Of a DNA stretch of 24,032 nucleotides, positions 1-21,505 are shown in pieces (the stretch's first letter is position 1; every line of letters starts with the position of its first letter). Where the stretch lies: the IMG/VR virus record IMGVR_UViG_3300049460_000386, positions 1 to 24,032 of that record. One strand, given 5' to 3'. This DNA comes from a virus. The position numbers and the translations under genes are program-made. The notes under the pieces were generated by a model. It had not been told where the DNA came from, did not search any database, and saw only the letters and a program-made list of their open reading frames with translations.

Positions 1-336
1 ATGACAATCATGCCCGACAAACCAGACACATGGCTGCTCGTTCTCGCGTGGCTGGGGCAGCACGCGCCGACGATCTACGCTGGTGCATTGTCATTCGTGG
101 TCGGTGCTTTGCGGATCATTTATGGCGGTGGTACGCGGCGACAAGCGCTGCTTGAAGCGTCGCTTTGCACGCTGATCACCATAGGCTTAATTCCTTTGTT
201 GGAGTACTTCGGTCTACCGCAGAACTTCGCCACGGCTGCGGGTGTATTCATCGGTTTTCTTGGCGTTAAGAAGATCGCCGATCTGGCTGATCGGTTCGCC
301 GACTTCAAGTTTCCTAAGTCGGATTCGACGCCATGA
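1..336 (+). CDS. Phage holin, lambda lysis protein S family
   Basis: Small inner-membrane protein that would open holes in the cytoplasmic membrane to release or activate the endolysin at the end of infection. The 111-residue product has three hydrophobic segments (about residues 24-40, 51-69 and 76-90) and a charged C-terminus (DLADRFADFKFPK), as in the lambda-type holin family PF05106. The YGGG turn after segment 1 and the GVFIGFLG run in segment 3 fit that family. The gene starts at the first base of the window, so its ribosome binding site is not visible; a second ATG at codon 4 is an alternative start. Its stop overlaps the next small ORF (ATGA). No endolysin or spanin is seen downstream, so the rest of the lysis cassette is presumably upstream of the window. 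Family assignment is from recalled similarity. Confidence 0.82.
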   Translation: MTIMPDKPDTWLLVLAWLGQHAPTIYAGALSFVVGALRIIYGGGTRRQALLEASLCTLITIGLIPLLEYFGLPQNFATAAGVFIGFLGVKKIADLADRFADFKFPKSDSTP

Positions 337-926: not shown

Positions 927-1033
927 TCTCATCGTGCAAAATAATGGTCTTAGTCGACTGCCTCCGTTTCAAACGCAGTGAGTGACTTCGGCAGACGGCG
1001 GAGGCCCGGGGACCCTGGCAACTTCCAAGGTAC

Positions 1034-1054
1034 ACGGGGCATAAGACTCGCGGG
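1034..1054 (+). other. cosN: Predicted lambda-like cosN packaging cut site
   Basis: The sequence reads ACGGGGC, six bases, then CTCGCGGG. Lambda cosN as I recall it has the same two blocks with the same six-base spacing; only the six bases inside the cohesive end differ (15 of 21 positions identical). By analogy the nicks would fall after 1036 on the + strand and after 1048 on the - strand, leaving a 12-nt 5' overhang GGGCATAAGACT at 1037-1048. Upstream, GGGACC (1009-1014) and AGGT (1028-1031) sit about where lambda has GGGTCC of cosQ and AGGT just before cosN. The position between the lysis genes and the terminase genes is where lambda carries cos, and the large terminase here is of the lambda GpA family. 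The match was made by eye. Confidence 0.75.
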
Positions 1055-1083
1055 AAAATGTTAGTGGCAGTGCGCAAAAGTTA

Positions 1084-1360
1084 GTTAACTGGTTAACTCG
1101 GGGGGGTTAACTTGGCTGAAGCCCTTACAGTCCGTGGCCTGTAGCCCGGTTAACTAAGGCGTTAACCAGGTTAACTCGGTTAACTGCTAATTGGCCTCAA
1201 CGCCAGACGGGCTGGGGCTTTGAGCATGGTTAACTCCTGAGTTAACCAACTGTTTTACTTGGTTAACTCCCAACGTCACCCTGAATTGACCTATAGGTCG
1301 CGCAGGCCGTGGCGTTCAGCGGTTCATCGATGAGTTAACCGACTAAATCACTCGGTTAAC
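1084..1360. repeat. Array of 12 GTTAAC palindromes (cosB-like or operator array)
   Basis: GTTAAC occurs at 1084, 1092, 1106, 1149, 1161, 1170, 1179, 1229, 1241, 1262, 1334 and 1355. Most copies extend to GGTTAACT or GGTTAACTC in one orientation or the other. A 6-bp site is expected about once in 4 kb at random. I noticed only two other copies in the window (2751 and 6342). Some copies form inverted pairs. The array begins about 36 bp to the right of the predicted lower-strand cos nick. This is where lambda places cosB, the multi-copy binding site of its small terminase subunit. No gene is convincing in this interval. Binding by the small terminase (2157-2756) or by the KilA-N protein (1648-2142) is inference. 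Confidence 0.8.
1239..1269. repeat. 11-bp perfect inverted repeat with 9-nt loop
   Basis: GAGTTAACCAA (1239-1249) and TTGGTTAACTC (1259-1269) are perfect inverted repeats separated by 9 nt. Their GTTAAC cores are 21 bp apart, two turns of B-DNA. The left arm also pairs with GGTTAACTC at 1228-1236 across a 2-nt spacer, so the two structures compete. Confidence 0.75.
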
Positions 1361-1369: not shown

Positions 1370-1474
1370 AAAAACTCTCGCATTTCAGGGCAAAACTCGC
1401 GCCTTTTCAGGCAAAACTCGGGGCTTTTTGAGCAAAACTCGAGCACTTCAGCGCAAAACTCAACACCCCGCGCT
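1370..1474. repeat. Five direct repeats of exactly 21 bp (CAAAACTC units)
   Basis: AAAACTC occurs at 1371, 1392, 1413, 1434 and 1455, a constant 21-bp step. The inner units read CAAAACTCG followed by a variable C/G/T-rich half often ending TTTCAGG; the last unit diverges after CAAAACTC. The period equals two helical turns, so the conserved blocks would lie on one DNA face. The units touch with no spacers, so this is not a CRISPR. The same 21 bp equals seven codons, so on the - strand the array reads as heptads containing EFC, inside an ORF that I do not call as a gene. The array lies 5 bp after the last GTTAAC inverted repeat and ends 33 bp before the terminator at 1507. Confidence 0.8.
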
Positions 1475-1647: not shown

Positions 1648-2142
1648 ATGAACAACGTCATCCCCTTTCATTACCAAGGTCAAGCCGTTCGCTTTAATAG
1701 CGAGGGCTGGATCAATGCCACTGAAATCGCCAAGCGAGAAGGTAGGCGCCTCGATAAGTGGCTTTCGACTCAAGAAACCCAGGAATACATACGTGCCCTG
1801 GGTCATCATTTAAATACCCCCGAAAAGGGGGATTTAATCTCGTCGATGCGCGGACGCTCTGGTGGCACCTGGTTACACCCGAAACTGGCTGTGGCATTTG
1901 CAAGATGGCTCTCGGCGGACTTTGCCGTCTGGTGTGACCTGCACATCGATGCCTTGTTGCGCGGCGAGCTGGACGAGAAACAGCAGTTTGACCGGGCCTG
2001 TAAGAGCCTGGATGACGCCAAAGCAAACGCCAGCCTTAACGGCAAGGCGCTTGCCAAGTACCGCTGGAAGAAGCCGGAACTTGTACAGCAAGTCGAGTAC
2101 TGGCGTGGCCAGCTGCAACTGACCTTGGGTCTGTGCGATTAA
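1648..2142 (+). CDS. KilA-N domain DNA-binding protein
   Basis: The 164-residue product carries a KilA-N domain over about residues 3-110, starting VIPFHYQGQAVRF with WINATEIAKR. It has the diagnostic block GGTWLHPKLAVAFARWLSAD (about residues 72-91) and then FAVWCDLHIDALLRGE. The remaining C-terminal segment (ASLNGKALAKYRWKKPEL, then a leucine-rich end) resembles the helical tail of other phage KilA-N proteins. KilA-N is a DNA-binding fold found in phage antirepressors and regulators. A second ATG at 1644 is out of frame; 1648 is preceded by GGAAGGAG at 1632-1639 with good spacing. The gene sits between the repeat array and the small terminase gene, 14 bp upstream of the latter. This suggests a role in packaging or in controlling the packaging genes, but the target is unknown. 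Confidence 0.87.
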   Translation: MNNVIPFHYQGQAVRFNSEGWINATEIAKREGRRLDKWLSTQETQEYIRALGHHLNTPEKGDLISSMRGRSGGTWLHPKLAVAFARWLSADFAVWCDLHIDALLRGELDEKQQFDRACKSLDDAKANASLNGKALAKYRWKKPELVQQVEYWRGQLQLTLGLCD

Positions 2143-2156
2143 CTAAAGGTTAGGCC

Positions 2157-2756
2157 ATGACCACAGTCACTAAGGCGGAGTACGCCCAGCGCCAAGGTTG
2201 GTCCAAGGCCTACGTGTCCAAGCTGGCCAAGAGCGGCCGCCTGGTGCTGGCCGCGGACGGCACGGTGGAGGTCGAGGCGACGGATCGCCGCCTGCTCAGC
2301 ACAGCGGACCCGAGCAAGGCCAACGTGGCGGCACGGCATCAGCGTGAACGCAGAGAGCACAGTCCGCAGCGGCCGGTCGCACCAGTCCCGATCGATCACC
2401 CACCAACGACCGACTTCTCACGGCAGACGCCGCTGCCGGGCGAAGGCATTCCGGACTTTCAGGAATCGCGGGCTTTTCGCGAGTACTTCGAGTCTCGTTT
2501 GACCGAAAGCGAGTTTTACAAAAATCGCGGGGCCTATGTGGAGTTGGCGGCAGTGAAAAGGGCCGCGCATTCCACGGGACGCATGCTGAGAGATTTGCTG
2601 CTCGGCATGCCGCCGCAGTTGGCACCCGAGCTGGCCGCAATGAGCGATCACTGGGAAATCGAACGGCACCTGACGGCGGCGCTGCGCCGCGTCCTGGAAG
2701 ATGCCGAGCGCATGTCCTCGGCCGACCTTGTTCATGCATTGACACCAGCGAGTTAA
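2157..2756 (+). CDS. terS: Terminase small subunit (Nu1-like)
   Basis: DNA-recognition subunit of the packaging motor; it would bind near cos and position the large subunit. The 199-residue product begins with a helix-turn-helix/winged segment (about residues 4-45: KAEYAQRQGWSKAYVSKLAK, then GRLVLAADGTVEVEATDRRL), as in Nu1-like proteins that read cosB in lambda. A Pro/Arg-rich linker (about 60-95) follows, then a helical C-terminal half (FREYFESRLTESEFYKNRGA and RRVLEDAERM) likely used for oligomerisation and contact with the large subunit. AAAGG at about 2145-2149 precedes the ATG. It ends 3 bp before the large subunit gene, the expected TerS-TerL pair. Its stop codon lies within a GTTAAC (2751-2756). 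Assignment rests on position and N-terminal architecture more than on strong sequence motifs. Confidence 0.8.
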   Translation: MTTVTKAEYAQRQGWSKAYVSKLAKSGRLVLAADGTVEVEATDRRLLSTADPSKANVAARHQRERREHSPQRPVAPVPIDHPPTTDFSRQTPLPGEGIPDFQESRAFREYFESRLTESEFYKNRGAYVELAAVKRAAHSTGRMLRDLLLGMPPQLAPELAAMSDHWEIERHLTAALRRVLEDAERMSSADLVHALTPAS

Positions 2757-2759: not shown

Positions 2760-4769
2760 ATGTCAACGGAAATGCCTGACGGTGAACAGGAGTACCGTCA
2801 GGATTTTTTCCGTGGGTTGAAGCCCGAGCCCGACGTCTGGATCGATGTCTGGGCTGACGAGTACATGCGTATTCCACGCGATGCCGGCGCTGCCGAACCC
2901 GGCCAGTACCGCACGGCGCGGACTCCGTATGCCCGTGAACCGATGCGCTGCCTGTCCCCGGCGCATCCCTGCAAGCGCGTGGTGACCATGGTCGCCTCGC
3001 AGTTGATGAAGACCCAGATTGCCCTGAACTGGATCGGCGGTCTGGTACACATGGCACCGTCGAACATCTTGACCTTACTGCCCAGCCTGGGCCTGGCCAA
3101 GCGGGTCTCGTCGCGCATCGGCAAGACCATCAAGGCCACCCCAGTGCTGCGCGAACGGGTGGCGGCCAACCGCTCGCGCGATGCCCGCAACACCATGGAC
3201 ACCAAAGAGTTCGAGGGCGGCTCGTTGTACATCACCACTGCCGGCTCGGCGGCGAACCTGTCGGAGTTGTCGGCGCGCTACATCTACGGCGATGAAGTGG
3301 ATCGCTGGGTGGTGGACGTGGGCGAGGAGGGTGACCCGATTGAGCTGGCAGAAACCCGCGGCAGTACGTTTGGCCGTAACGCCAAATTCTACTTTTCCAG
3401 TTCGCCGACGATTCGTGGTGCGTCGCGCATTGCCGATTTGTTCGAGACCAGCGATCAGCGTTTTTATTATGTGCCGTGTCCGAATTGCGGGCACATGCAA
3501 GTCCTGGAGTGGGAGCGCCTGCTTTACTCGGCGGATTACCAGCGGGTGCACTACCAGTGTGCCGGGCCTGACTGTGACGTGCTGATTGAGGAACACCATA
3601 AGGGCGAGATGTTGGCCAAGGGCGAGTGGCGTGCCCATGCCCAGGGCGATGGTGAAACCGTGGGGTTCAACCTCAATGCCTTGTACTCGCCAGCGGGCTG
3701 GACCGGTTGGGCCGCATTGGCCAAGCAGTTCGAGAAGGCCAAGCTGGCCATGTCGCGCGGTGATCTGGAACCCATGCAAGTGTTTTATAACACCCGCCTG
3801 GCCAAGGTCTGGGACAGCGCACAGGAGCAAACCAAAGCCGATGTGTTGATGGCGCGGGCGCGCCTGGAACCCTATGGCTTGGGGTTGATGCCGTGCGGTG
3901 CATTGCTGCTGACGGCGGCGGTCGATGTTCAAGGCAACCGTCTGGAGTTGTTGGTGGTCGGCTGGGGGCCGGGCATGGAGCGCTGGATCATCGATTACCA
4001 GGTGATCTGGGGGGACCCGTCCGATGAACACACCTGGGCGGTGCTGGATGACAAACTCAAGGCGCGTTATCCGCATCCGAGCGGTGCGCAGCTGACGATC
4101 CGGGCTGTGGGCATCGACTCCGGCGGGCATCACACTGATGAGGTTTACCAGTTCTGCCGGCTGCGACGCTGGCGCAACATTTTTGCGGTGAAGGGGGCGA
4201 GCAAACCCGGCCGACCGGTGATCGCACAGCGGCCATCGATGGTGGATGTAACCTGGAAAGGCACCACTGAACGCAAAGGGGTGGGGCTCTGGATGATTGG
4301 CACCGACACTGCCAAGGACTGGATCTATAACCGCTATCCGGTGGAAGACGGTCCCGGTGCTTTGCACTTTGCCAACGACCTGCCAAACGATTTTTTTGAA
4401 CAGTGCGTCGCCGAGCGCAAGGTCACCCGCTACGTCAAAGGCTTCAAGAGAGTCGAATGGGTCAAGGGCAAGGCAGAGCGTAACGAGGCCCTGGACTTGA
4501 TGGTGTACAGCCTGGCCATGGCGCATTATCTGGGACTGAACCGCTACAAGGAACATGACTGGGCACAGGTGAGAAGCGCTCTGTGGCAGGTGACGCCATC
4601 AGGCCAGAAACCTGTCACGGCCGAGCGTCTACGTGCTGCGGCGAAACCAGAGGAACAGCCGGCCGAGGCAGCGCCGCAACACAGTGTCCCCACGACGGCC
4701 CCCGTGCGTATTGCAGCACCGGCACAACGGCGAAGTTCCAGCAGCGGCTACCTCAAAAAGCGACGCTGA
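2760..4769 (+). CDS. terL: Terminase large subunit, lambda GpA family
   Basis: ATPase and endonuclease that cuts concatemers at cos and pumps DNA into the procapsid. The 669-residue length matches the GpA family (PF05876; lambda gpA is 641). The variant Walker A region is VASQLMKTQIALN at about residues 78-90. The Walker B strand with acidic pair is YIYGDEVDRW at about 174-183. A Cys-rich zinc-binding insert follows (CPNCGH, then CAGPDC, about 240-275). The nuclease half begins AAVDVQGNRLELLVVGWG (about 385-402), carrying the expected metal-binding Asp, and continues with IDSGGHHTDEVYQFCR (about 452-467). The C-terminus is Pro/Ala-rich and basic (YLKKRR), as expected for the portal-docking tail. 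The start follows the small subunit by 3 bp. GpA-type terminases generally make cohesive ends, in line with the cos site at 1034-1054. Confidence 0.96.
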   Translation: MSTEMPDGEQEYRQDFFRGLKPEPDVWIDVWADEYMRIPRDAGAAEPGQYRTARTPYAREPMRCLSPAHPCKRVVTMVASQLMKTQIALNWIGGLVHMAPSNILTLLPSLGLAKRVSSRIGKTIKATPVLRERVAANRSRDARNTMDTKEFEGGSLYITTAGSAANLSELSARYIYGDEVDRWVVDVGEEGDPIELAETRGSTFGRNAKFYFSSSPTIRGASRIADLFETSDQRFYYVPCPNCGHMQVLEWERLLYSADYQRVHYQCAGPDCDVLIEEHHKGEMLAKGEWRAHAQGDGETVGFNLNALYSPAGWTGWAALAKQFEKAKLAMSRGDLEPMQVFYNTRLAKVWDSAQEQTKADVLMARARLEPYGLGLMPCGALLLTAAVDVQGNRLELLVVGWGPGMERWIIDYQVIWGDPSDEHTWAVLDDKLKARYPHPSGAQLTIRAVGIDSGGHHTDEVYQFCRLRRWRNIFAVKGASKPGRPVIAQRPSMVDVTWKGTTERKGVGLWMIGTDTAKDWIYNRYPVEDGPGALHFANDLPNDFFEQCVAERKVTRYVKGFKRVEWVKGKAERNEALDLMVYSLAMAHYLGLNRYKEHDWAQVRSALWQVTPSGQKPVTAERLRAAAKPEEQPAEAAPQHSVPTTAPVRIAAPAQRRSSSSGYLKKRR

Positions 4770-4821
4770 GTGAAACGCGCAGTTGCAACCCACGTTGTCT
4801 TTTTACTTTAGAGCGATCCCC

Positions 4822-5028
4822 ATGGCCTTTACCCAACAGCAACTCGATGCGGTCGAGAAGGCAATTGCGCGCGGTGAAAAAATCGTGCGCTACGCAGATC
4901 GCAACGTCGAGTACCGCGACATCGACGAATTGCTCAGGGCACGCGACGAAATTCGGAGCTCGCTGATCGCGGCGGCAGGTCCGCGGTCGCGCATCGTGCG
5001 GCTTTACCATGGAGGCAAGGGACTGTAA
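4822..5028 (+). CDS. W: Head-tail joining protein gpW
   Basis: The 68-residue product has the length and position of lambda gpW (PF02831), a small head-completion protein added after DNA packaging that prepares the portal vertex for FII and tail attachment. Sequence features are an N-terminal helix (FTQQQLDAVEKAIARGE), a short hairpin (KIVRYADRNVEYRDI) and a second helix (DELLRARDEIRSSLIAA), the known gpW alpha-beta-alpha layout. The tail RIVRLYHGGKGL is basic. An in-frame ATG at 4783 would add 13 residues without family support, so 4822 is chosen. The stop shares its last base with the start of the portal gene (TAATG). Confidence 0.87.
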   Translation: MAFTQQQLDAVEKAIARGEKIVRYADRNVEYRDIDELLRARDEIRSSLIAAAGPRSRIVRLYHGGKGL

Positions 5029-6512
5029 TGGCTCGTCAGTATCCAACCTTGGGTCGCAGCGGTTTCTTGATTCCGTCGAACATCAAGGCCAGCTATGAAG
5101 GGGCTGCCGAAGGGCGCCGCTCTGCCAGTTGGGATGCGCCCGACGCCGGTTTCAACAGCATTGCCATTCCGGCATTGCGCAACCTGCGTTCGCGTTCCCG
5201 GGCCGCGGTGCGCAACGATCCATACGCCTTCAACATCATCGACAAGCGGGTCAGCAACCTGATCGGTACCGGTATCACGCCGCGGCCGAAAACCCAGGAC
5301 GACGAGCTTCGGCATCTGCTGCAGGAACTTTGGGCCGATTGGGTCGAAGAGTCTGACGCCGATGGTCTGACCGACTTTTATGGGCAGCAGGCGCTGATCG
5401 CCCGAACGGTAGAAACGGCCGGCGAATGTTTTGTCCGCCTGCGCCCGCGCAGCCTCGATGAGGGGCTGACGGTGCCGCTGCAACTCCAGGTACTGGCGCC
5501 GGAGTTTGTGCCGCACGACAAGTTCGAAATGGCCCGTAACGGCAACATCATTCGTGCCGGCATTGAGTTCAGTCCGGACAGTCGCCGGGTCGCGTATTGG
5601 ATGTACCGCTCGCATCCCGGTGATGCCTCCTCAACGAACAGTGGCTACAACCAGCTGGTGCGTGTACCGGCCAGTCAGGTGCTGCACATTTTTGAGCCGG
5701 TCGAACCGGGTCAGTTGCGCGGTCTGCCGCGCTTATCGCCGGTGCTTAAACGCCTGCGCAGCCTGGACAACTACGACGATGCGGTGTTGTTCCGTCAGGA
5801 GGTGGCCAACCTGTTCGCCGGTTTCATCAAAAAGCCTTCGCCGGATGACATCCAGACCCCAGTCGACCCGGTGACCGGTGCGCCGCTGAACCTCGCCTCG
5901 GATGGTTTCACGCCCATGGTCGCGTTAGAGCCCGGGACCATGCAGGAGTTGTTGCCGGGGGAGGAGGTCGAGTTTTCCACGCCGCCGGATGCCGGCAACA
6001 ACTATCCGGATTTCATGCGTCAGCAATTGATGGCAGCGGCGGCTGGTGCCGGAATGCCGTACGAAATCCTCACCGGTGATATGCGCGAAGTGAATGACCG
6101 CGCACTGCGGGTGGTGCTCACCGAGTTCCGGCGTCGACTGGAGCAGCTGCAATTTGGTGTGTATGTGCACCAGTTGTGCCGCCCGGTGCGGGCTGCGTGG
6201 CTGGACATGGCCGTGCTCAGTGGTGCCGTGCGGTTGCCGGACTACGCCCAGCGCCGCCGTGAGTATCTGCGTACACGCTGGGTGCCCCAAGGCTGGGCGT
6301 ACATTCATCCGGTTCAGGATGTTCAGTCACGCACGATGGAAGTTAACGCCGGCTTTGCCTCGCGCAGCGAAATGGTCCTGCGCACCGGCTATGACGCCGA
6401 AACGGTGGACGAAGAAAACGCCGCCGATGCCGAGCGGGCTCGGGGCAAAGGTCTTAATTACAGCACGCTCGTCGAACTGCTTCAGGCGTTCGACGACCAG
6501 GAGCAAGCATGA
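5028..6512 (+). CDS. B: Phage portal protein, lambda gpB family
   Basis: Forms the dodecameric ring at one capsid vertex through which DNA enters and leaves, and to which terminase and then the tail dock. The 494-residue product is typical for the lambda portal family (PF05136). It has the N-terminal block RRSASWDAP, the stretch RSRAAVRNDPYAFNIIDKRV near residue 60, and the helical core around PRLSPVLKRLRSLDNYDDAV (about 238-257). The conserved late block includes AAAAGAGMPYEILTGDMREV (about 338-357). The C-terminal part (VQDVQSRTMEVNAGFASRSE) also fits. It overlaps gpW by 1 bp and the protease gene by 4 bp (ATGA), giving a coupled head operon. Confidence 0.96.
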   Translation: MARQYPTLGRSGFLIPSNIKASYEGAAEGRRSASWDAPDAGFNSIAIPALRNLRSRSRAAVRNDPYAFNIIDKRVSNLIGTGITPRPKTQDDELRHLLQELWADWVEESDADGLTDFYGQQALIARTVETAGECFVRLRPRSLDEGLTVPLQLQVLAPEFVPHDKFEMARNGNIIRAGIEFSPDSRRVAYWMYRSHPGDASSTNSGYNQLVRVPASQVLHIFEPVEPGQLRGLPRLSPVLKRLRSLDNYDDAVLFRQEVANLFAGFIKKPSPDDIQTPVDPVTGAPLNLASDGFTPMVALEPGTMQELLPGEEVEFSTPPDAGNNYPDFMRQQLMAAAAGAGMPYEILTGDMREVNDRALRVVLTEFRRRLEQLQFGVYVHQLCRPVRAAWLDMAVLSGAVRLPDYAQRRREYLRTRWVPQGWAYIHPVQDVQSRTMEVNAGFASRSEMVLRTGYDAETVDEENAADAERARGKGLNYSTLVELLQAFDDQEQA

Positions 6513-7663
6513 GCAAGAACACGCCTCCGCGCATTTTAAACAAGGCCGGCCAGCAGGTGCCGGTGCAGGACAAAAGTTGGTACGCCGTGCACGCCAGTGG
6601 TGAAGCCACCGAGCGGGTGATCGAAGTCTTTGTGTACGGCGAGATCGGCACCTGGGGCATTACGGCCAGTCAGTTCATGCAGGATCTGCGCGCCGTCGAT
6701 GACGGCGTGTCACCGGTGATCGCGGCGTTCAACAGTATCGGCGGGGATCTGTTTGACGGATTGGCCATGCACAACACCTTGTCGCGGCTGGGCGAGCGTT
6801 GCACGGCCCGTATTGATGCCTTGGCCGCGAGCGCGGCGAGTGTTGCCGTGTGCGGTGCCCACAAGGTGGTGATCGCGTCGAATGCCATGCTGATGATCCA
6901 CAATCCATGGACCTATGCGGCCGGCGATGCCGACAGCTTTCGCAAGGTGGCCGATGTCCTTGACCAAACCATGGAAGCGATCATTGCAGCATACAAGGCC
7001 AAGGCACCCACCATCAATGAGGCAGAGCTGCGCGATATGGTGGCCGCTGAAACCTGGTTGACCGCCAAGGAAGCGGTGGCCCTGGGGCTGGCCGATGAAG
7101 TGGGTGACGGCGTTCAGATCAAGGCGTGTCTGGGGCAGGGCGGAGTGATGCAGCGTTACCAGCACACCCCAGCTGAATTACTGGCCCAGCTCAATGAGTC
7201 GCCTGAGCCAGCTCCGCAGTCGGAGCCGGAGCCAAACGATCTACCCGCGCATGTGGTCGATTCGGCCAAGCTGGCGTTGTTGATCACTCAACGTTGCGCC
7301 GAGTCGGGGATCAGCAACCTGGTCGCGCCGTTGCTCAGTTCGACCCAGCTTGAAAGCGAAGAGATAGTCCTGGCGGGGCTGACCCGGGCCAAGGCGGTGC
7401 ATGACCTGTGTGTCGCGGCACGATTGCCAGAACTCAGTGCCGAGTACGTGGCCGCGGGGCTGGATGAGTCCGCGGTACGCGCGCGGTTGTTCGACAAGAT
7501 CGTCAGCAGCGGCAACGGTTTCGAAATCGATAACAGCGTGCCCCTCAACGATGACCCAGCACCGAAGGTGCAGGCGAAACAACCGAATCCTTCTTCGATC
7601 TGGGCAGCCCGTCAGGCCGCCCATGCGGGGCAATCCAACAGTGCCAAAGGAGCACGAGCATGA
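6509..7663 (+). CDS. C: ClpP-like head maturation protease with C-terminal scaffold-like region
   Basis: Prohead protease of the lambda gpC type, with a ClpP-fold serine peptidase over about residues 30-205. The oxyanion-side motif reads NSIGGD (75-80), where most relatives have NSPGGD. The nucleophile is probably Ser108 in ALAASAAS, the general base His131 in MLMIHNPW, and the acidic residue lies near 181 in AETWLTAKEAV. A Pro/Glu-rich linker (about 228-246) joins a helical C-terminal domain (about 247-384). In lambda the corresponding region is also made separately as the scaffold Nu3 from an internal start. An in-frame ATG at 7148 (codon 214) just before the linker is a candidate, but its SD spacing is poor. 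The ATG overlaps the portal stop (ATGA), and the stop overlaps the decoration gene the same way. Confidence 0.94.
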   Translation: MSKNTPPRILNKAGQQVPVQDKSWYAVHASGEATERVIEVFVYGEIGTWGITASQFMQDLRAVDDGVSPVIAAFNSIGGDLFDGLAMHNTLSRLGERCTARIDALAASAASVAVCGAHKVVIASNAMLMIHNPWTYAAGDADSFRKVADVLDQTMEAIIAAYKAKAPTINEAELRDMVAAETWLTAKEAVALGLADEVGDGVQIKACLGQGGVMQRYQHTPAELLAQLNESPEPAPQSEPEPNDLPAHVVDSAKLALLITQRCAESGISNLVAPLLSSTQLESEEIVLAGLTRAKAVHDLCVAARLPELSAEYVAAGLDESAVRARLFDKIVSSGNGFEIDNSVPLNDDPAPKVQAKQPNPSSIWAARQAAHAGQSNSAKGARA

Positions 7664-8004
7664 CTGTAAAGTACGAAACGCTACACGCTGGCGAGTTTCT
7701 GCTCTCCGAAGGGGTCGGAAAGATCTCTCGTGAATCCATTCTGGTCGCCGCCGGTGCCGCACTGAATGCCGGCCAGGTGCTGGGACTGGTCACGGCGACC
7801 AATGAGTTTGCGCCCTACGATCCCGCCGCTACCGACGGTACCGAAGTGGCGGCCTGCATCCTCTACGGGCCACTGGGCGAATCGACCGAAGAGCGTCGTG
7901 CCAGCGCCGTGGTGCGGCTGGCCGAGGTTAGCGAGGTACATTTGACCGGTTTCGATGCTGACGCGGAAGCCGCCTTGGCGGCTCAATTTGTGATTGCCCG
8001 CTAA
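7660..8004 (+). CDS. Head decoration protein, lambda gpD family
   Basis: Trimeric protein that binds the outer surface of the expanded capsid and stabilises it. The 114-residue length equals the family norm (PF02924; lambda gpD is 110). Conserved features are the LVAAGAALNAGQVLGLVT segment after a short, partly disordered N-terminus, the APYDPAATDGTEVAACILYG strand region, and the VVRLAEV strand with a C-terminal helix (DADAEAALAAQFVIAR). It is coupled by ATGA to the protease gene and separated from the capsid gene by a terminator hairpin. That arrangement fits the need for large, roughly equal amounts of decoration and capsid proteins. Confidence 0.93.
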   Translation: MTVKYETLHAGEFLLSEGVGKISRESILVAAGAALNAGQVLGLVTATNEFAPYDPAATDGTEVAACILYGPLGESTEERRASAVVRLAEVSEVHLTGFDADAEAALAAQFVIAR

Positions 8005-8024
8005 GTCCAGCCCCCCTTTATCCC

Positions 8025-8049
8025 AACCCCGCCTTGTGCGGGGTTTTGC
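8025..8049 (+). terminator. Terminator hairpin directly upstream of the capsid gene SD
   Basis: AACCCCGC (8025-8032) and GCGGGGTT (8038-8045) form a perfect 8-bp stem with a 5-nt loop, followed by TTTTGCTTTTC. The capsid SD (TGGAG, about 8054-8058) follows within 10 bp. It lies inside the structural operon, so partial readthrough or antitermination is needed. The same layout recurs at 11113, 15895 and 21483. Confidence 0.8.
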
Positions 8050-8068
8050 TTTTCTGGAGAGTCCCTTC

Positions 8069-9064
8069 ATGGCCGACATTGGCATTTTTACCGACGATGT
8101 TTTTTCCGTGTCTTCGCTGACCGCAGCGATCAATGAGCAGGAATACTTGCCGGGCCGCATCAGCAGCCTGGGCCTGTTTCGCGAGGAAGGCATCAGCACC
8201 CTGACCGTGCAGATCGAAAAGGACGGCAACACCCTAGCCCTGGTGCCGGCGGGTGAGCGTGGTACCTCGGGTCTGGTCGTGGGTGCAAGCAAGCGTCAGA
8301 TGATCCCGTTCAACACCGTGCACTTGCCGCAGCGTTTCACCATCAAGGCTGACGAGATCCAGGGCATTCGTGCCTTTGGTACGACGACCGAACTGCAGGC
8401 TGTGCAGGGGGTAGTGAACACGCGCCTGAGCAAAGCCAAGCGCCAGCTCGATGCCACCCATGAGTTCCAACGCATGGGCGCGCTGAACGGCTTGGTACTG
8501 GACGCTGACGGCTCGACGGTCCTGCTGAACATTTACCAGGCGTTTGGTGTGCAACAACAAAGCCTGTCCATGGGCCTGAACGACTCGGCCACCAAAATCC
8601 GGGTCAAGTGCGCCGAAGCGCTGGACATGCAGGACGATGAACTGGGCAGCGTCACCAGCTCGGGCGCGCGGGCTTTCTGCGGCAAGAATTTCTGGAACAA
8701 GCTGATCACGCACAAATCGGTTGAGGAGACCTACCTCAATACGATCCAGGCCGCGGAATTGCGTGGCGATGCGCGGGACAGTTTCGAGCTGGGCGGCATC
8801 GTCTGGGAGCGCTATCGCGGGCGCATCGCTGGCGTGTCGTTTATCCACGACGATCAGGCGTTGTTGATTCCGGAAGGCGTACCGGATCTGTACATCTCTT
8901 GCTTTGCTCCGGCGGACTACATGGAAACGGCCAACACTCAAGGCCTGCCGTATTACAGCAAGCTGGAGCCATTGCCGTTCAACAAGGGAATGGCCGGTGA
9001 AGCGCAGTCCAACCCGTTGCACCTGTGCACGCGTCCTCGGGCGCAGATCCTGCTGACGCTCTGA
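8069..9064 (+). CDS. E: Major capsid protein, lambda gpE family
   Basis: Main shell protein of the icosahedral head. The 331-residue product fits the lambda E family (PF03864; lambda gpE is 341). Features seen are the N-terminal segment with FSVSSLTAAINEQEYLPGRI, the block LVPAGERGTSG, the helix-rich stretch FTIKADEIQGIRAFGTTTEL (about residues 91-110), and the late strand DLYISCFAPADYMETANTQG followed by LPYYSKLEPLPFNKGMAGEA. The start at 8069 follows a TGGAG SD at about 8054; longer in-frame starts from 7994 would run through the terminator hairpin and are rejected. The ORF is the only long open frame here and shows the expected codon bias. Confidence 0.96.
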   Translation: MADIGIFTDDVFSVSSLTAAINEQEYLPGRISSLGLFREEGISTLTVQIEKDGNTLALVPAGERGTSGLVVGASKRQMIPFNTVHLPQRFTIKADEIQGIRAFGTTTELQAVQGVVNTRLSKAKRQLDATHEFQRMGALNGLVLDADGSTVLLNIYQAFGVQQQSLSMGLNDSATKIRVKCAEALDMQDDELGSVTSSGARAFCGKNFWNKLITHKSVEETYLNTIQAAELRGDARDSFELGGIVWERYRGRIAGVSFIHDDQALLIPEGVPDLYISCFAPADYMETANTQGLPYYSKLEPLPFNKGMAGEAQSNPLHLCTRPRAQILLTL

Positions 9065-10013: not shown

Positions 10014-10569
10014 TCCTGCCTTTTCCTTGGATGCGTTGTATGCGGCCATCGAGGAGCACATCCGCCAAGCGCTGCCGACGGTGCGCTTTGTGGCGACCTG
10101 TCCGGACATTCAGGACCGGGTGGCACTGCCGGCGGTGTTCCTGGAACCGGTGGAGTTTGAACCCGGGCAAGACATCGGTACCGGTGAAACGGTGCTGGTC
10201 CAACGCTTTGAAGCGCGGGTCATTGTTGCGCCCGAGTTGGCCCGTCACCAGCAACTGGGTGCGCAGTTGGCGGCACAGATCGCCGTTTTGCTTCGGGGAC
10301 AGACATGGGGACTGGACAAGGTCGAGCAGGCGCAGTTCGTGGCCTCACGTCAGGACTGGACCAAACCGGAGCTGGATGGCTACACCGTGTGGATGGTGGA
10401 GTGGACCCAACAGATCTACCTCGGTGAGGTTGAATGGTTATGGCCAGTCGAACCGCCGGGTTCCCTGTACCTGAACGTCGATGGCTGCACCGGTACCGGC
10501 AATGAAGATCACTACTTTCAACCAGAGGATCTGGCATGGGATACGCCAGCGCTGAACACGACCGGATGA
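10006..10569 (+). CDS. Probable tail terminator/completion protein, hypothetical
   Basis: No firm family name. The 187-residue product begins with a helix (DALYAAIEEHIRQALPTVRF), then DIQDRVALPAVFLEPVEFEP, the segment GTGETVLVQRFEARVIV and a second helix (RHQQLGAQLAAQIAVLL). It ends with a beta-rich part (ELDGYTVWMVEWTQQIYLGE) and an acidic tail. A helix plus beta-sheet layout of this size, placed between a tail completion gene and the spike gene, is like tail terminator proteins, and I recall similar hypothetical proteins at this place in other proteobacterial phages. In P2 the corresponding slot holds R and S (tail completion). The start is GTG at 10006, within the end of the previous gene. 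The end overlaps gpV by 34 bp, so all three genes are coupled. Confidence 0.65.
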   Translation: MSDPAFSLDALYAAIEEHIRQALPTVRFVATCPDIQDRVALPAVFLEPVEFEPGQDIGTGETVLVQRFEARVIVAPELARHQQLGAQLAAQIAVLLRGQTWGLDKVEQAQFVASRQDWTKPELDGYTVWMVEWTQQIYLGEVEWLWPVEPPGSLYLNVDGCTGTGNEDHYFQPEDLAWDTPALNTTG

Positions 10570-11096
10570 TCGCTGCGATGCTGCTGCCTTGCGTGGTGGT
10601 CGGCGTCGATCTGAGTGCCGGCCGGGTGCGGGTCAAGGCCGGTACCTGGATCAGTGCCTGGGTGCGTTGGCATAGTTTGGCCGCGGGCAAGGCACGTCAT
10701 TGGCGTGCGCCGAGCACGGGGGAGCAGGGCGTGTTGTTCAGCCCCAGTGGAGACCCGGCCATGGGCACCTTTATCCCGGGGCTGTATGGCAACGCCGGAA
10801 CGCCGCCGGACAACCGCGATCACGTCGAGGCGTGGTACTTCGACGACGGCGGCTCACTGGTTTACGACTGGGCAGCCGGCAGCTACAGCATCGCGTTACC
10901 CGACGGCAGTAGCGCGACCATCACAGTCGGGGGCTCGCAGTTTGAAGTCACGCCGGCTCAAGTGCGGGTGACGGCCAGCCAGATCACCCTGGCGGGTGAG
11001 GTGAGCATCGACGGTGCGTTGAGTGTATCCGGCGACATCACCGGCGCGGGCACGATCATGGATGCCGGGGGCAACAGCAGTAACCACTCGCATTGA
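10536..11096 (+). CDS. V: Baseplate spike protein gpV (P2-like)
   Basis: Trimeric membrane-piercing spike at the tip of the contractile tail (PF04717 family; P2 gpV is 211 aa, this is 186). The N-terminal OB-fold region reads MIAAMLLPCVVVGVDLSAGR and continues with WHSLAAGKARHWRAPSTGEQ and GVLFSPSGDP. It is followed by a repetitive beta-prism (SYSIALPDGSSATITVGGSQ, then ITLAGEVSIDGALSVSG). The last residues are NHSH: the HxH motif that in P2 gpV holds the apical iron ion (three chains, six His). GAGG at about 10524-10527 is the SD. It is the first gene of the P2-type tail block and ends just before a terminator hairpin. Confidence 0.93.
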   Translation: MGYASAEHDRMIAAMLLPCVVVGVDLSAGRVRVKAGTWISAWVRWHSLAAGKARHWRAPSTGEQGVLFSPSGDPAMGTFIPGLYGNAGTPPDNRDHVEAWYFDDGGSLVYDWAAGSYSIALPDGSSATITVGGSQFEVTPAQVRVTASQITLAGEVSIDGALSVSGDITGAGTIMDAGGNSSNHSH

Positions 11097-11112
11097 GTGA
11101 ACATTCACCTTC

Positions 11113-11135
11113 AGCCCGCCGCGTGTGGGCTTTTT
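11113..11135 (+). terminator. Terminator hairpin after gpV, before the 73-aa gene
   Basis: AGCCCGC (11113-11119) and GTGGGCT (11125-11131) form a 7-bp stem (one G-T wobble) with a 5-nt loop, followed by TTTTT. The next gene's SD (CTGGAG, about 11141-11146) follows at once, the same layout as at 8025, 15895 and 21483. Confidence 0.75.
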
Positions 11136-11153
11136 CATGCCTGGAGAAAAAGC

Positions 11154-11375
11154 ATGACAAGTAAAACCAAGGAAGTATCGGCCGCCAGTGAGGCGCCCGC
11201 GCCGGCCACGCTGAGTATCTTTCGCGACACCCTGTACACCTCGCGGGTGCTGATTCTGCTGGAGGCCGAGCGCACCTTGAAAGTGGAAAAGGGCCAGGTC
11301 GCGGTGGCGTCGGACGACACGGTCGCGATCGAGTATTTGCACGGGCGCAAGGATTTTGTCGCGGTCGAGGGCTGA
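11154..11375 (+). CDS. Hypothetical 73-aa protein between V and W
   Basis: Not assigned to a named family. The 73-residue product has a low-complexity Ala/Pro/Ser N-terminus (about 1-22: SAASEAPAPA), followed by a compact beta-rich region with IFRDTLYTSRVLILLEAERT and VEKGQVAVASDDTVAIEYL. CTGGAG precedes the ATG at the normal distance; the longer in-frame start at 11097 would lie before the terminator hairpin and is rejected. In P2 there is no gene between V and W, so this is an insertion specific to this tail type, possibly a baseplate accessory protein. Coding status is supported by SD, spacing (4 bp to the next gene) and codon bias. Confidence 0.7.
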   Translation: MTSKTKEVSAASEAPAPATLSIFRDTLYTSRVLILLEAERTLKVEKGQVAVASDDTVAIEYLHGRKDFVAVEG

Positions 11376-11379
11376 TCCC

Positions 11380-11715
11380 ATGATCGGGATGATCGGACTG
11401 GACCGCCGCACCGGCCAACTCATTTCCGGCCTCGATCACCTGCGCCAGTCCATCGAGGACATCTTGTCCACGCCGCTGGGCAGCCGGCGCATGCGCCCGG
11501 AGTACGGCAGCAAGCTGCGGCGCTTTGTCGACCTGCCGGTCAATGACGGCTGGAAAAGTGCCGTGCAGGCGGAAGTGGCCAGCACGCTCGGGCGTTGGGA
11601 GCCTCGCCTGAAACTTGGCCGGGTGCGCGCCGTGGCCATCCTCGACGGGCGTATCACCTTTGAACTGACCGGGCAGTACCTGGGCAGCGACGTGACTTTG
11701 GAGGTGTCCGCATGA
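11380..11715 (+). CDS. W: Baseplate wedge protein gpW (gp25-like, P2-like)
   Basis: Baseplate assembly protein of the GPW/gp25 family (PF04965), which joins baseplate wedges to the central hub and starts sheath polymerisation. The 111-residue length is usual. Recognised segments are MIGLDRRTGQLISGLDHLRQ, SIEDILSTPLGSRRMRPEYG (the family's best conserved stretch, with the RxMRPEYG block) and the C-terminal strand VTLEVSA. An in-frame ATG at 11356 lies inside the preceding gene; 11380, 4 bp after that gene, starts in register with the family's N-terminus. Its stop overlaps gpJ by ATGA. Confidence 0.94.
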   Translation: MIGMIGLDRRTGQLISGLDHLRQSIEDILSTPLGSRRMRPEYGSKLRRFVDLPVNDGWKSAVQAEVASTLGRWEPRLKLGRVRAVAILDGRITFELTGQYLGSDVTLEVSA

Positions 11716-12590
11716 CCATGGAACTGGCGGCCCTGCCGCCGCCGCAAGTGCTGGAGGACCTCGACTTTGAGGAGGTGTACCAGGAGAAACTGGAAGCCTT
11801 CCGCCTGAGCATGGGCGACAACTGGAGCGCAGAGCTGGAGAGCGACCCGGTGCTCAAGCTGATCGAGCAGGCCGCGTATGGCGCCTTGCAGAACCGGGCG
11901 CGGGTCAACGACGCCGGCAAGGCCTTGCTGTTGGCCCATGCCGAGCGGGCCGACCTCGATCACCTGGCCGCCAACGTCAACCTGCAACGCCTGGAGATTC
12001 AGGCCGGAGACCCGAGCACGGTGCCACCGACGCCACAGGTGCTTGAGGAAGACGATGCCCTGCGTGAGCGAGTGCAGCTGTCGTATGAGGGGCTGACCAC
12101 GGCGGGGCCGCGCAACAGCTACATCCTCCATGCGCGCAACGCCTCGGGCCTGGTGTCCGATGCCACGGCGGAAAGCCCGTCGCCGGCCGTGGTGGTGGTC
12201 ACGGTGCTCAGTCTGGAAGGCAGTGGCGCCGCTTCACCGGAACTGCTCGAACAGGTCCGCCTGCACCTGAATGACGAGGACGTGCGGCCGGTGGCCGATC
12301 GGCTCACGGTGCAGAGCGCCTTGGTTATCGACTACCGCATTGAAGCGGTGCTGTATCCGCAGGCACCGGGCCCGGAAAACGAAGCCTACCTGGCCGAAAG
12401 CCAGAAACGCCTGAGCGAGTGGATCAACCCGCGTCGTCGCCTGGGGCTGGAAGTGGCGCGCTCGGGGATCGATGCGCAGCTGCACGTTCCCGGCATCGCC
12501 CGGGTTGAGCTGCTGGGCTGGACCGATATCAGACCGACCAAGGCCGAGGCGGCGTATTGCACCGGCTACAGCGTGACGCTGGGGGCCTGA
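11712..12590 (+). CDS. J: Baseplate assembly protein gpJ (P2-like)
   Basis: Baseplate J family (PF04865), 292 residues against 302 for P2 gpJ; it forms the outer wedge of the baseplate. Conserved blocks are the N-terminal LPPPQVLEDLDFEEVYQEKL, the helix with DPVLKLIEQAAYGAL, and ARVNDAGKALLLAHAERADL followed by DHLAANVNLQRL. The central EDDALRERVQLSYEGLTTAG leads into GPRNSYILHA with VSDATAESPSPAVVVVTVLS, and the C-terminal part carries RRLGLEVARSGIDAQLHVPG. It is coupled to gpW (ATGA) and followed 1 bp later by gpI. Confidence 0.95.
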   Translation: MTMELAALPPPQVLEDLDFEEVYQEKLEAFRLSMGDNWSAELESDPVLKLIEQAAYGALQNRARVNDAGKALLLAHAERADLDHLAANVNLQRLEIQAGDPSTVPPTPQVLEEDDALRERVQLSYEGLTTAGPRNSYILHARNASGLVSDATAESPSPAVVVVTVLSLEGSGAASPELLEQVRLHLNDEDVRPVADRLTVQSALVIDYRIEAVLYPQAPGPENEAYLAESQKRLSEWINPRRRLGLEVARSGIDAQLHVPGIARVELLGWTDIRPTKAEAAYCTGYSVTLGA

Positions 12591-12591
12591 C

Positions 12592-13203
12592 ATGAGCAGC
12601 CAGTTACCGCTCAACAGCACGCCACTGGAGCTGGCCGTGGAAGCGGCCAACTACGAAAACACGCTGATTCCGCTGCGCAGTTTGTACAACGCCGACACCT
12701 GCCCGGAGCATTTGATGCCGTACCTGGCCTGGTCCTGGTCGGTGGACCGCTGGAACAACAACTGGACACCGCAAGCCAAACGCACGGCGATCCGTTCGGC
12801 GTACGACGTGCATGCGCGCAAGGGCACCATCGGGTCGTTGCGGCGGGTGGTCGAGCCCTTGGGCTACCTGATCGACGTCGTGGAATGGTTCGACACCGTG
12901 CCGGAAGGCGTGCCCGGCACCTTCGCCCTGGAGGTCGGGCTGAACGACGCCGGCATCACCGAAGAACTGTACGAGGAACTGGCGTGGTTGATCGACGATG
13001 CACGTCCGGTCAGCCGGCACATGACCAACCTGGCGCTCAGTCTGCAGACCTCGGGGCAATTGGGCATCGCCGTGTGCGTGCAAGAGGGCGAAGAGATCGA
13101 CGTGTACCCCCCGGCTCCGCAAGACATCGACGTGACCGGCAGCTTTGGCCCGGCGCTCTGCGTCGATGAAACCGATACTTTGGACGTTTATCCTTATGAT
13201 TGA
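12592..13203 (+). CDS. I: Baseplate/tail protein gpI (P2-like)
   Basis: Tail protein I family (PF09684), 203 residues (P2 gpI 176). It is a baseplate component that connects the wedge to the tail fibre. Conserved features are LRSLYNADTCPEHLMPYLAW (about residues 28-47) followed by SWSVDRWN, then RTAIRSAYDVHARKGTIGSL (about 64-83) with RRVVEPLG, and the C-terminal DDARPVSRHMTNLAL block. The last 50 residues are an acidic tail (EEIDVYPPAPQDIDV, then ETDTLDVYPYD) not seen in shorter relatives, probably the fibre contact. It starts 1 bp after gpJ and overlaps the fibre gene by 8 bp. Confidence 0.93.
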   Translation: MSSQLPLNSTPLELAVEAANYENTLIPLRSLYNADTCPEHLMPYLAWSWSVDRWNNNWTPQAKRTAIRSAYDVHARKGTIGSLRRVVEPLGYLIDVVEWFDTVPEGVPGTFALEVGLNDAGITEELYEELAWLIDDARPVSRHMTNLALSLQTSGQLGIAVCVQEGEEIDVYPPAPQDIDVTGSFGPALCVDETDTLDVYPYD

Positions 13204-15367
13204 TAAGAGCAGTCAGTTTTTTGCCATCCTCACGGCAGTCGGTGAAGCCAAACACGCCAATGCCATCGCCTTGGGCCTGGACTGGATGTTCACCGAGATG
13301 GGTCTGGGCGATGCCAACGGCACCGACCCGATTCCCGATCGCCTGCAGACCCAGCTGATCAACGAATGGCGCCGGGCGCCGATCAACCAGATCCGCGTCG
13401 ATCCGGCCAATCCCAACACGGTAATCACCGAACAGATCATTCCGCCGGAAGTCGGCGGTGAGTGGATTCGCGAGATCGGCCTGTACGACGTCGACGGCGA
13501 TCTGGTCGCCGTGGCCAACTGCGCGCCGAGCTATAAACCGTTGCTGGACCAGGGCAGTGGCAAAACCCAGGTGGTGCGGATGAACTTCATCGTCAGCAGC
13601 TCGGCGAACATCGTGCTGAAGATCGATCCGGCGGTGGTCCTGGCGACCCGCGAATACGTCGACACGAAGATTCAGGAAGAGCTGAACAAGCTCGATCACA
13701 AGCAGTCGGTGCGGGTCGCCGCCACTGCGGACATCGCGCTGAGTGGTGTGCAGACCCTCGATGACGTGGCCGTGGTCGTTGGTGACCGGGTGCTGGTGAC
13801 TGCGCAGGCGCAGCCGCAGGACAACGGACTCTATGTCGTTAGCACCGACGGCTGGACACGGGCGGTCGATGCCGACAACAGCCTGGAAGTGACCCCGGGA
13901 CTGTTTATCCATGTGGAGCAGGGCACCGTCAATGGCGACAGCCTCTGGCAGTTGGTCACCGACGCGCCGATCACCCTCGGCAGCACCGGTTTGCAGTTTG
14001 AGATGATCGCCGGCGGCAGTGGGGCCGGCGTAGGCACCTTTCGCAGCGTCACCGTCGATGCCCTCGGCCGGGTAATTGCAGGCACCACCCCGACCACCCT
14101 GGACGGCTACGGCATCACCGACGCGTTACCCATTGACGGCACCGCCGTGGCGGCTACCCAACTGGAAACAGCGCGCACGGTTAGCGTATCAGGGGCGGCC
14201 AGCGGCAGCGCGCTCTTCGATGGCACCGGCGATGCTGACATAGCGATTATGTTGGCCGACAGCGGTATTGCGGCGGGCACTTATTCCTGCGTTACGGTTG
14301 ATGCCAAAGGTTTGGTGACAGCGGGCGACCAGCTGACAGGCGACGACCTCGGGCTGGGTACCGCCGCCTACCTGAATGCCCAAGTCAGCATTGATGATGC
14401 AACGGCTGAGGCGTTGATGAAAGTGGGCGCCTTTGGCCTCGGCGGTAGCGGGATTGTCCTGCCCGTAGACACTAATCTGGACACGGTCATCCTCGGTGGG
14501 CACTACCGGGTACTCACCGGCGGCAATATCCCTCCTGGAGGGGAGTACAGCCCCATGCTGGTGATCCGCGGCAGCGATGTAGTCGCCCAGATCGTCATCA
14601 GCTACCTGACCGGCACCCTTTATTCCCGTGGGGCCAGTGGGATTGGCGACGTCCCGGTGTTCACCGAGTGGGTCACCCATTGGAACAATCAAAACTTTAA
14701 CCCTGCCGCCTATCAACCTGCCCTCGGATTCGCGCCCGTTCAACAGGGTGGCGGTATTGGGCAAGGCGCGAGCAAGGTGTATATCGGATGGTCGGACACC
14801 GGATTAAAGGTCACCGTCGATGCAACGGACCTGGGGGGTATTGCCTTACTGAATGCGCCTGCCTTCGTCGGTGGAATCACGGTCTCCGGAAACTCCAACT
14901 TCTGGGCCTCATTGGGTATCGGGGGTGACCTATCCGTTGTAGGCACGCTCTACCCTACCGCCGTGGCGTGTTCTACCACCGTTTCCGCCACCAGTGGCGT
15001 TTACTCTGGTAGTCATGTCTATGCCGGCTCTGGCACTTCGCTGCTTGATTCCACCGGCAACAGCTATGGGCCAATTTGGGGCGGCTATTTAAGCAACTAC
15101 CTCGCCGCAAACTACCCATCCTTCTGGACCATGATGCCGAAGATCGGCGAGCAGCCCCATGGCGCGGTGGGTACCTATGCACTCATGTACATCGGCAGCC
15201 AGACCCAAGCCCCAGGCTGGATGGTCGCGGGCAGCGCACTTTGCTATTCCGCTACAGCGGGCGGTGCTAGCAGTGGCATCTATGCAACGGGCACATGGCG
15301 ATTGATGGGTTATATCAACGCGGCCAGCGCTGCTTACAGTACATCCCTATTTATGAGGGTCGAGTAA
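13196..15367 (+). CDS. H: Tail fibre protein (P2 gpH-like N-terminus)
   Basis: Receptor-binding fibre, 723 residues. Residues 1-150 form the baseplate-attachment domain (DUF3751/PF12571: MIDKSSQFFAILTAVGEAKH, then EIGLYDVDGDLVAVANCAP). The shaft has a coiled segment (about 160-170), an Asp/Gly-rich domain (about 175-275) and fibre motifs VTVDALGRVIAG with TTLDGYGITDALP (about 285-312), echoed by VTVDAKGLVTAG near 366. A second shaft part carries FNPAAYQPALGFAP (about 500). The C-terminal tip (about 650-723: GAVGTYALMYIGSQ, APGWMVAGSALCYSATAGG, TWRLMGYINAA) is of the Mu/P2 collar type. The start at 13196 gives the family N-terminus; an earlier in-frame start lies inside gpI. From about 14,650 on, base composition is less GC-rich than in the baseplate genes, which suggests exchange of the tip. 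Confidence 0.92.
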   Translation: MIDKSSQFFAILTAVGEAKHANAIALGLDWMFTEMGLGDANGTDPIPDRLQTQLINEWRRAPINQIRVDPANPNTVITEQIIPPEVGGEWIREIGLYDVDGDLVAVANCAPSYKPLLDQGSGKTQVVRMNFIVSSSANIVLKIDPAVVLATREYVDTKIQEELNKLDHKQSVRVAATADIALSGVQTLDDVAVVVGDRVLVTAQAQPQDNGLYVVSTDGWTRAVDADNSLEVTPGLFIHVEQGTVNGDSLWQLVTDAPITLGSTGLQFEMIAGGSGAGVGTFRSVTVDALGRVIAGTTPTTLDGYGITDALPIDGTAVAATQLETARTVSVSGAASGSALFDGTGDADIAIMLADSGIAAGTYSCVTVDAKGLVTAGDQLTGDDLGLGTAAYLNAQVSIDDATAEALMKVGAFGLGGSGIVLPVDTNLDTVILGGHYRVLTGGNIPPGGEYSPMLVIRGSDVVAQIVISYLTGTLYSRGASGIGDVPVFTEWVTHWNNQNFNPAAYQPALGFAPVQQGGGIGQGASKVYIGWSDTGLKVTVDATDLGGIALLNAPAFVGGITVSGNSNFWASLGIGGDLSVVGTLYPTAVACSTTVSATSGVYSGSHVYAGSGTSLLDSTGNSYGPIWGGYLSNYLAANYPSFWTMMPKIGEQPHGAVGTYALMYIGSQTQAPGWMVAGSALCYSATAGGASSGIYATGTWRLMGYINAASAAYSTSLFMRVE

Positions 15368-15852
15368 TGCCTGATGAAATGAATAACGAATTACCTGAGC
15401 TCGTACCCTTTGTTCCGCCCCCACCTCCAGCCCCGCTAGAGCCCATCGCGCCCTATGTCTACGAGGTTCGAAACTTAACCTTGTTCAAGGACGGGGTTGT
15501 TGACTGCGAGGTACTGAGCAAAGCGTTTGGCTGGATTCCATACAGCGCCCATCCAGCAGACACAGCCCCGGCGGCCATCGCTGTGTTCGAGTACATCGAA
15601 GCGAACGACATTGATGTGTCGACGCTTCCCCCAAGCCCGAACCTTGCAACTGCGATCACTGACAAGGAACGGAGCTGGCGTAACGACGAGTTGGTGGTGG
15701 CCGATGTCGAGCTGCTGAAAGCCGAGGACGCTGACCCTGCTTCTGTGGGTACACCGGCACAGTGGCGGCAGTACCGCGTGGACCTTCGCAACTGGCCCCA
15801 GTCGCAAGCCTTCCCGGATTCCACCCTGCGTCCAGTGCGGCCGACCACTTAA
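15367..15852 (+). CDS. Tail fibre assembly chaperone
   Basis: The 161-residue product would help fold or trimerise the fibre encoded just upstream, as gpG does for gpH in P2. Residues 14-30 are a proline-rich linker (VPFVPPPPPAPLEPIAP), followed by VYEVRNLTLFKDGVVDCEVL. The C-terminal region carries the diagnostic block WRNDELVVADVELLKAEDAD, then WRQYRVDLRNWPQSQAFPDS, as in the phage tail assembly chaperone family PF16778. The ATG overlaps the fibre stop by 1 bp (TAATG); an in-frame ATG at 15295 lies inside the fibre gene. Like the fibre tip it is less GC-rich than its neighbours, consistent with the two being swapped together. Confidence 0.88.
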   Translation: MPDEMNNELPELVPFVPPPPPAPLEPIAPYVYEVRNLTLFKDGVVDCEVLSKAFGWIPYSAHPADTAPAAIAVFEYIEANDIDVSTLPPSPNLATAITDKERSWRNDELVVADVELLKAEDADPASVGTPAQWRQYRVDLRNWPQSQAFPDSTLRPVRPTT

Positions 15853-15894
15853 CATCGAAGCATTTTCTATTCTGTTACGCATCACGTCACTCAC

Positions 15895-15918
15895 AGCCTC
15901 GCTACTGCGGGGCTTTTT
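15895..15918 (+). terminator. Terminator hairpin directly upstream of the sheath gene SD
   Basis: AGCCTCGC (15895-15902) and GCGGGGCT (15907-15914) form an 8-bp stem with one T-G pair and a 4-nt loop, followed by TTTTT. The sheath gene SD (CTGGAG, 15924-15929) follows at once. Confidence 0.8.
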
Positions 15919-15938
15919 CGTTTCTGGAGCATCACTCT

Positions 15939-17102: not shown

Positions 17103-17114
17103 GGAGGCCGCTTT

Positions 17115-17618: not shown

Positions 17619-17629
17619 GGAGCACCACC

Positions 17630-18050: not shown

Positions 18051-18074
18051 GCCCCCTTCATACACAGGTACCCC

Positions 18075-20423: not shown

Positions 20424-20432
20424 GGAAATGAA

Positions 20433-21471: not shown

Positions 21472-21482
21472 TCCCGTTACCC

Positions 21483-21505
21483 AGCCCGCCGCACGCGGGC
21501 TTTTT
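21483..21505 (+). terminator. Terminator hairpin between X and D
   Basis: AGCCCGC (21483-21489) and GCGGGCT (21495-21501) form a perfect 7-bp stem with a 5-nt loop, followed by TTTTT. The gpD SD (TGAGG, about 21511-21516) follows at once. It is the fourth example of the terminator-plus-SD layout in the structural region. Confidence 0.8.

Follow-up and report, generated by a model that had tools for sequence, protein, structure and literature searches.

In the lambda-like phages, R3 of both lambda and N15 lies at about 48-63, N15 has no IHF site between R3 and R2, and the lambda recognition helix comprises residues 17-24 (PMC9026076). Cohesive ends have also been defined for the RcC phages of Rhodobacter, where 11-nt 5´ overhangs were derived from read ends (PMC8601537), and in Pseudomonas a siphovirus-type head combined with a P2/R-pyocin-type tail has been described for Pf-5 prophage 03 (Mavrodi et al., 2009, PMC2647930). 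Here we analyzed IMG/VR virus record IMGVR_UViG_3300049460_000386 (hereafter the window, meaning the whole stretch of 24,032 b), which is a fragment and not a whole genome. Judged from its sequence, the stretch at 1008-1360 is very probably a complete cos of the lambda type belonging to a temperate Pseudomonas phage, in which TerS bound to GTTAAC repeats anchors a TerL that generates 12-nt 5´ ends. The features of the site and its surroundings are the following.

1-336, plus strand: holin, the upstream lysis gene (PHROG 126, E = 1.9e-38).
1008-1018, plus strand: cosQ-like block GGGGACCCTGG, about 1.9 bits/base over 152 distinct relatives, at the same offset from cosN in relatives.
1034-1054, plus strand: cosN, ACGGGGCATAAGACTCGCGGG, in the exact lambda cosN frame, with a core conserved in kin.
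1037-1048, plus strand: predicted 12-nt 5´ cohesive end GGGCATAAGACT, aligned with the adapter-captured LPPA36 ends GGTGATTCGAAC.
1060-1067, plus strand: conserved block GTTAGTGG (in the family, GTTAGCGG), overhang +24 to +31, with 1.63 bits/base at +25 to +31.
1084-1360, plus strand: candidate cosB, 12 GTTAAC copies, the first at overhang base +48; the class tracks the TerS helix.
1648-2142, plus strand: KilA-N gene, between cosB and terS (PF04383, E = 1.9e-22).
2157-2756, plus strand: TerS, the gpNu1-like terminase small subunit (PHROG 57).
2760-4769, plus strand: TerL, gpA-like ATPase and nuclease (PF05876, E = 3.3e-83; PF20454, E = 1.4e-108).
4783-9064, plus strand: lambda-type head genes, namely W-like adaptor, portal, ClpP-like protease, D and E (PF05136, PF00574, PF02924, PF03864; PHROG 2545).
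10536-22567, plus strand: P2-type contractile tail genes (sheath, PF04984/PF17482; tube FII, PF04985; hub, PF05954; baseplate and tape measure PHROGs).

The first-pass annotation had placed a cos between the lysis and terminase genes, which is borne out, with the holin before it and TerS and TerL after it, the KilA-N gene intervening. The terminase consists of a TerL of the gpA family and a TerS of the gpNu1 family (PF05876, PF20454 and PHROGs), and the PHROGs of the two proteins, 15 and 57, respectively, are also matched by lambda gpA and gpNu1. The tail is not of the long non-contractile lambda kind, the sheath and tube genes being P2-type. This combination of a lambda head and a P2 tail had been singled out as striking, but the hybrid plan was published for Pf-5 prophage 03 (PMC2647930) and therefore is not new. 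The gap between cosB and terS is 1098 b in the window, compared to ~335-350 b in the sampled kin of the GTTAAC class (619 b in L092), and we count the KilA-N gene, which parts cosB from terS in the window, against the full reading.

The sequence ACGGGGC-N6-CTCGCGGG at 1034-1054 is the sole zero-mismatch match in the window, and lambda (J02459, ends joined) has the identical 15 bases with identical spacing. The exact match to lambda cosN that had been claimed thus stands for sequence and spacing, whereas the 15/15 identity is peculiar to the window. Since close kin read CTCGCGCA or CCCGCGGG, only a shorter core (ACGGG...CGCG plus cosQ) is conserved; the full 15-base identity with lambda is partly luck, the shared core real. 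GGGACC, which had been likened to lambda cosQ at nearly equal distance, starts within GGGGACCCTGG 28 b ahead of the overhang, compared to 30 b for GGGTCC in lambda, and the block is conserved upstream of cosN in relatives. The AGGT ahead of cosN, also put forward as a shared mark, is not conserved in the family.

To extend the comparison, TerL relatives were gathered from genomes and IMG/VR, giving 160 loci, nearly all from Pseudomonas where named. The cosN pattern was found within two mismatches in 140/160 loci; the other 20 comprise 17 in which a diverged cosN follows the shared cosQ block, plus three on contigs that stop short of the site. The alignment with phages sharing the terminase, a check suggested earlier, hence showed that terS is preceded in 157/157 relatives of sufficient length by the cosQ block (GGGGACCCTG) and by a cosN that aligns with that of the window, although some loci are near-copies and the 157 therefore are not independent cases. 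Over 152 distinct sequences, information content was 1.90 bits/base for cosQ, 1.54 for cosN, 1.63 for the GTTAGCG block (+25 to +31) and 0.21 for the upstream flank. The GTTAGTGG/GTTAGCGG block was conserved on par with cosN in all TerS classes. At one locus (L153:113-165), the family cos is preceded at a distance of ~385 b by a second, differing cos-like sequence (GGGTCC, ACGGGTCATCGAACTCGCGG). When the intergenic region was compared with phage records by blastn, the sole match was short and lay outside the cos.

These data bear on whether the motif is a chance match or the dead remnant of a defective prophage. Stops in some kin TerL genes of the genus, together with the fragmentary nature of the window, would fit a remnant, but the terS and terL reading frames are open in the window, and only 3-4 x 10^-4 matches to the 15-base motif are expected by chance (whole window, both strands, window's composition). 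With chance excluded for the site because it is conserved in many relatives, we consider this explanation extremely improbable. By its sequence, the site is instead one of the lambda-type cos sites of a large Pseudomonas phage family, with a variant cosB.

Physical ends could be recognized in records of relatives. The public "complete genome" of Pseudomonas phage LPPA36, whose TerL is 64% identical to that of the window, holds an untrimmed BGISEQ adapter pair. At the cos (OR188719.1, L003:177-260), the left and right adapters (sequences as printed in PMC10788357) enclose a 10-nt barcode, and an identical 12-base sequence, GGTGATTCGAAC, stands on either side of this insert. We read this junction as adapters that were probably ligated to filled-in 12-nt 5´ virion ends and then assembled through. 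Alignment on the conserved flanks (ACAAG-N12-CCCG... and ACACG-N12-CGCG...), which in LPPA36 and the window are at equal distance to the TTAG/CTAG block, puts the LPPA36 cuts at window positions 1036/1037 and 1048/1049, the nicks predicted for the top and bottom strands, respectively. This support for the cut position is near-experimental, coming from one assembly artefact rather than a read pile-up, in a more distant relative with a different overhang. The cosN sequence for 12-nt 5´ ends is matched exactly in the window, and the cut length was seen in LPPA36 alone. The 12-nt overhang GGGCATAAGACT proposed in the first-pass annotation accordingly draws support from 157/157 kin, from the lambda-type terminase genes and from the adapter-captured ends of a relative. 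Both ends of the Haddon record also fall at the cos site, and the Presto record ends in the overhang. The end of the Haddon record (PQ571161.1 end, L005:1-30) carries a hairpin artefact, an inverted repeat, at the cos. Among more distant phages, the RcHotPocket record begins GGGGGCGGAAG/CGCG.

With headful (pac) packaging, the motif would be the pac site at which packaging begins, and a single end would be fixed. A conserved start site by itself is compatible with this mechanism, which we nevertheless regard as very improbable given that the same 12 bases are present at both LPPA36 ends, that the Haddon record ends in the cos on both sides, that Rhodobacter kin have defined 5´-overhang ends (PMC8601537) and that the terminase is gpA-type.

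The earlier reading had left out the cosB (12 GTTAAC) and the re-use of the site by mobile elements; what goes beyond it is that clade-specific repeats downstream of cosN follow the TerS helix and that elements carry multi-class cos arrays. In 445 b, 0.04 copies of GTTAAC are expected by chance, against 12 observed. The repeated sites lie downstream with the first near bp 48-50, the sequence layout of a cosB, and in the scored phages, with two exceptions, the first repeat begins at overhang +48 or +49, the position of R3 in lambda and N15 (PMC9026076). Four copies of GCAAAACTC, ~21 b apart, are found downstream of the GTTAAC repeats (window 1390-1461).

Among 158 phages there are four main repeat classes, GTTAAC, GTTGAC, GTGAAC and TTGAAA/ATTGAA, with TerS recognition-helix classes, in the same order, of GWSKxYVSKL, KGWSRQY/H, GWA/SKSYVSKLxxQD/E and PSYITWL. 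Repeat class agrees with helix class, the atypical loci being L085, L090 and L112. On the TerL tree, at least 20 changes are needed for the repeat class and at least 19 for the helix class; overhang types vary independently (29). The definition of both sets of classes postdates inspection of the data, and with cosB next to terS their concordance could result from linked swapping alone. Array elements without terS, described below, keep matching repeats and spacing and therefore provide evidence independent of the cosB-terS linkage.

The AlphaFold model of TerS (mean pLDDT 77), built from an alignment of genome loci only, with two phage-collection rows left out, has helices at 6-13 and 17-26, and residues 17-26 are predicted to be the recognition helix of a winged HTH. 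Z scores for structural matches to terminase-type DBD folds were modest: 6.7 for residues 2-52 against 7lw0 (rmsd 1.4, 50 aligned) and 7.6 for residues 1-66 against the PICI Rpp 6hn7 (rmsd 5.5, 64 aligned). Foldseek with the TerS model gave E values above 0.5, and a TerS sequence search of the PDB gave no match.

The cos might be genuine while the GTTAAC repeats are operators, for example for the KilA-N protein, and TerS recognizes the GTTAGCGG block. This possibility gains from the position of the KilA-N gene, which adjoins the repeats, and from GTTAGCGG at +24 to +31 being better conserved than the repeats. However, the block is invariant across TerS classes, and a sequence that is constant whatever the TerS class cannot set specificity. 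In addition, the TerS recognition helix and the repeat class covary, the repeats are kept in kin whose gap is too short for a gene, and in terS-less elements the repeats have stayed with cosQ and cosN, at +48/49. Operators thus seem unlikely to us.

In the reading that we favor, with the repeats as cosB, TerS (2157-2756) would bind GTTAAC and anchor TerL (2760-4769) on cosN. TerL would then nick the two strands at points 12 bp apart to give the 5´ ends GGGCATAAGACT. Packaging would proceed to the right, so that cosB and terS are the first to enter, and would halt at the next cosQ-cosN of the concatemer. The analysis itself establishes the sequence, its conservation, the gene family, the cut position by alignment with a relative and the coupling of repeat class to TerS helix; we infer the binding of TerS to GTTAAC, the direction of packaging and, by homology with lambda, the role of cosQ.

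A pattern combining cosQ and cosN (at most one mismatch) was detected in 113/299 Pseudomonas genomes, compared to 0 for a reversed control, and many of the matches were away from TerL, in clusters. We examined 34 clusters in 31 genomes (loci L208-L239, L261 and L262). Elements with arrays of two to three complete convergent cos units are present in at least 31/299 Pseudomonas genomes (for example, L219:9780-10205 and L208:9767-10200), and these elements are the surprising part of the result. TerL was not found in any of the 31 array loci checked. Facing units are spaced 219-258 b apart and tandem units 133-163 b apart. Each unit includes a separate cosQ, cosN, GTTAG-type block and set of repeats, the repeats being mostly at +48/49. 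The units are all of different cosB class in 32/32 classified arrays, although the arrays share descent and therefore are not independent trials. Fourteen arrays have three units, a TTGAAA unit facing one GTGAAC and one GTTGAC unit, and in the L261 array mixed GTTAAC/GTGAAC repeats face TTGAAA.

Gene content was read in three elements. Three elements of 8.6-17.5 kb are bounded by tRNA 3´-end repeats: L232 (9.2 kb), L215 (17.5 kb) and L219 (~8.6 kb), for which the repeat is imperfect. The L219 element encodes an integrase, an excisionase-like protein, DUF3077, a primase and a 287-aa core gene, followed by the array, and cargo in other elements includes Tmn, Dsr1, restriction or AbiV genes. Separately, a GTTAAC-class cos was noted beside a 1275-aa SIR2-domain gene in a 20-kb locus with no TerL (L260:8522-8715); this site possibly represents a single-cos element, or a remnant, for the helper class of the window.

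Their organization suggests that the array elements are satellites packageable by several terminase classes. We lean toward a "keyring" arrangement, in which two to three complete convergent cos, one per TerS class, would allow helpers with incompatible terminases to package one element; the facing layout would keep packaging from ending prematurely at the other unit. The elements carry anti-phage cargo beside the array. AH14a and AH14b of Pseudomonas ANT_H14 were considered as a helper-satellite pair and rejected, as these are phages without cohesive ends and with another terminase (PMC4936722). For satellites with cos arrays, the open literature (subscription papers being outside the scope) yielded the EcCICFT073 precedent and no class-matched arrays.

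Collectively, the findings extend the lambda packaging model, to the precision of single bases, to a large family of hybrid Pseudomonas phages. Within a single TerL background, this family provides at least four natural specificity classes of TerS/cosB, a ready set for testing DNA choice by TerS. The cos-unit arrays flag parasitic elements from sequence alone and point to usable helpers. Multi-helper packaging via matched cos arrays, if true, differs from the use of one shared cos (P4) or the redirection of TerS (Rpp, enteric PICIs).

Compared with lambda (J02459), 21, N15, phi80 and Gifsy-1, the window has the same cosQ-cosN-cosB order, predicted 12-nt 5´ ends and partial dyad symmetry of cosN. 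As in lambda-like phages, terS and terL come directly after the cos, TerS and TerL are homologous, and the first TerS site, here a candidate, is ~48-50 bp into the chromosome. The candidate cosB differs in extent, with 12 GTTAAC over 277 bp in the window, three R sites in lambda and one in N15. The window also differs from lambda-like phages in having GGGGACCCTG as its cosQ, a conserved GTTAGCGG block, a KilA-N gene interrupting cosB-terS and a contractile P2-type tail. Pf-5 prophage 03 shares the head/tail hybrid and the holin before the packaging genes, but its description includes no cos, the word "cos" being absent from the text (PMC2647930). The Rhodobacter RcC phages (PMC8601537), with a TerL 38% identical to that of the window, share 5´-overhang cohesive ends and CGCG right of the cut; they differ in their 11-nt overhang, siphovirus tail and GTTTCCACTT repeats. 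The Pseudomonas elements resemble the EcCICFT073 PICI, a terminase-less island with two functional lambda-like cosN (PMC6092414, PMC9026076). That island has no recognized cosB, and TerS is redirected by Rpp. The Pseudomonas elements, unlike EcCICFT073, carry full candidate cosB sets of different classes in convergent orientation.
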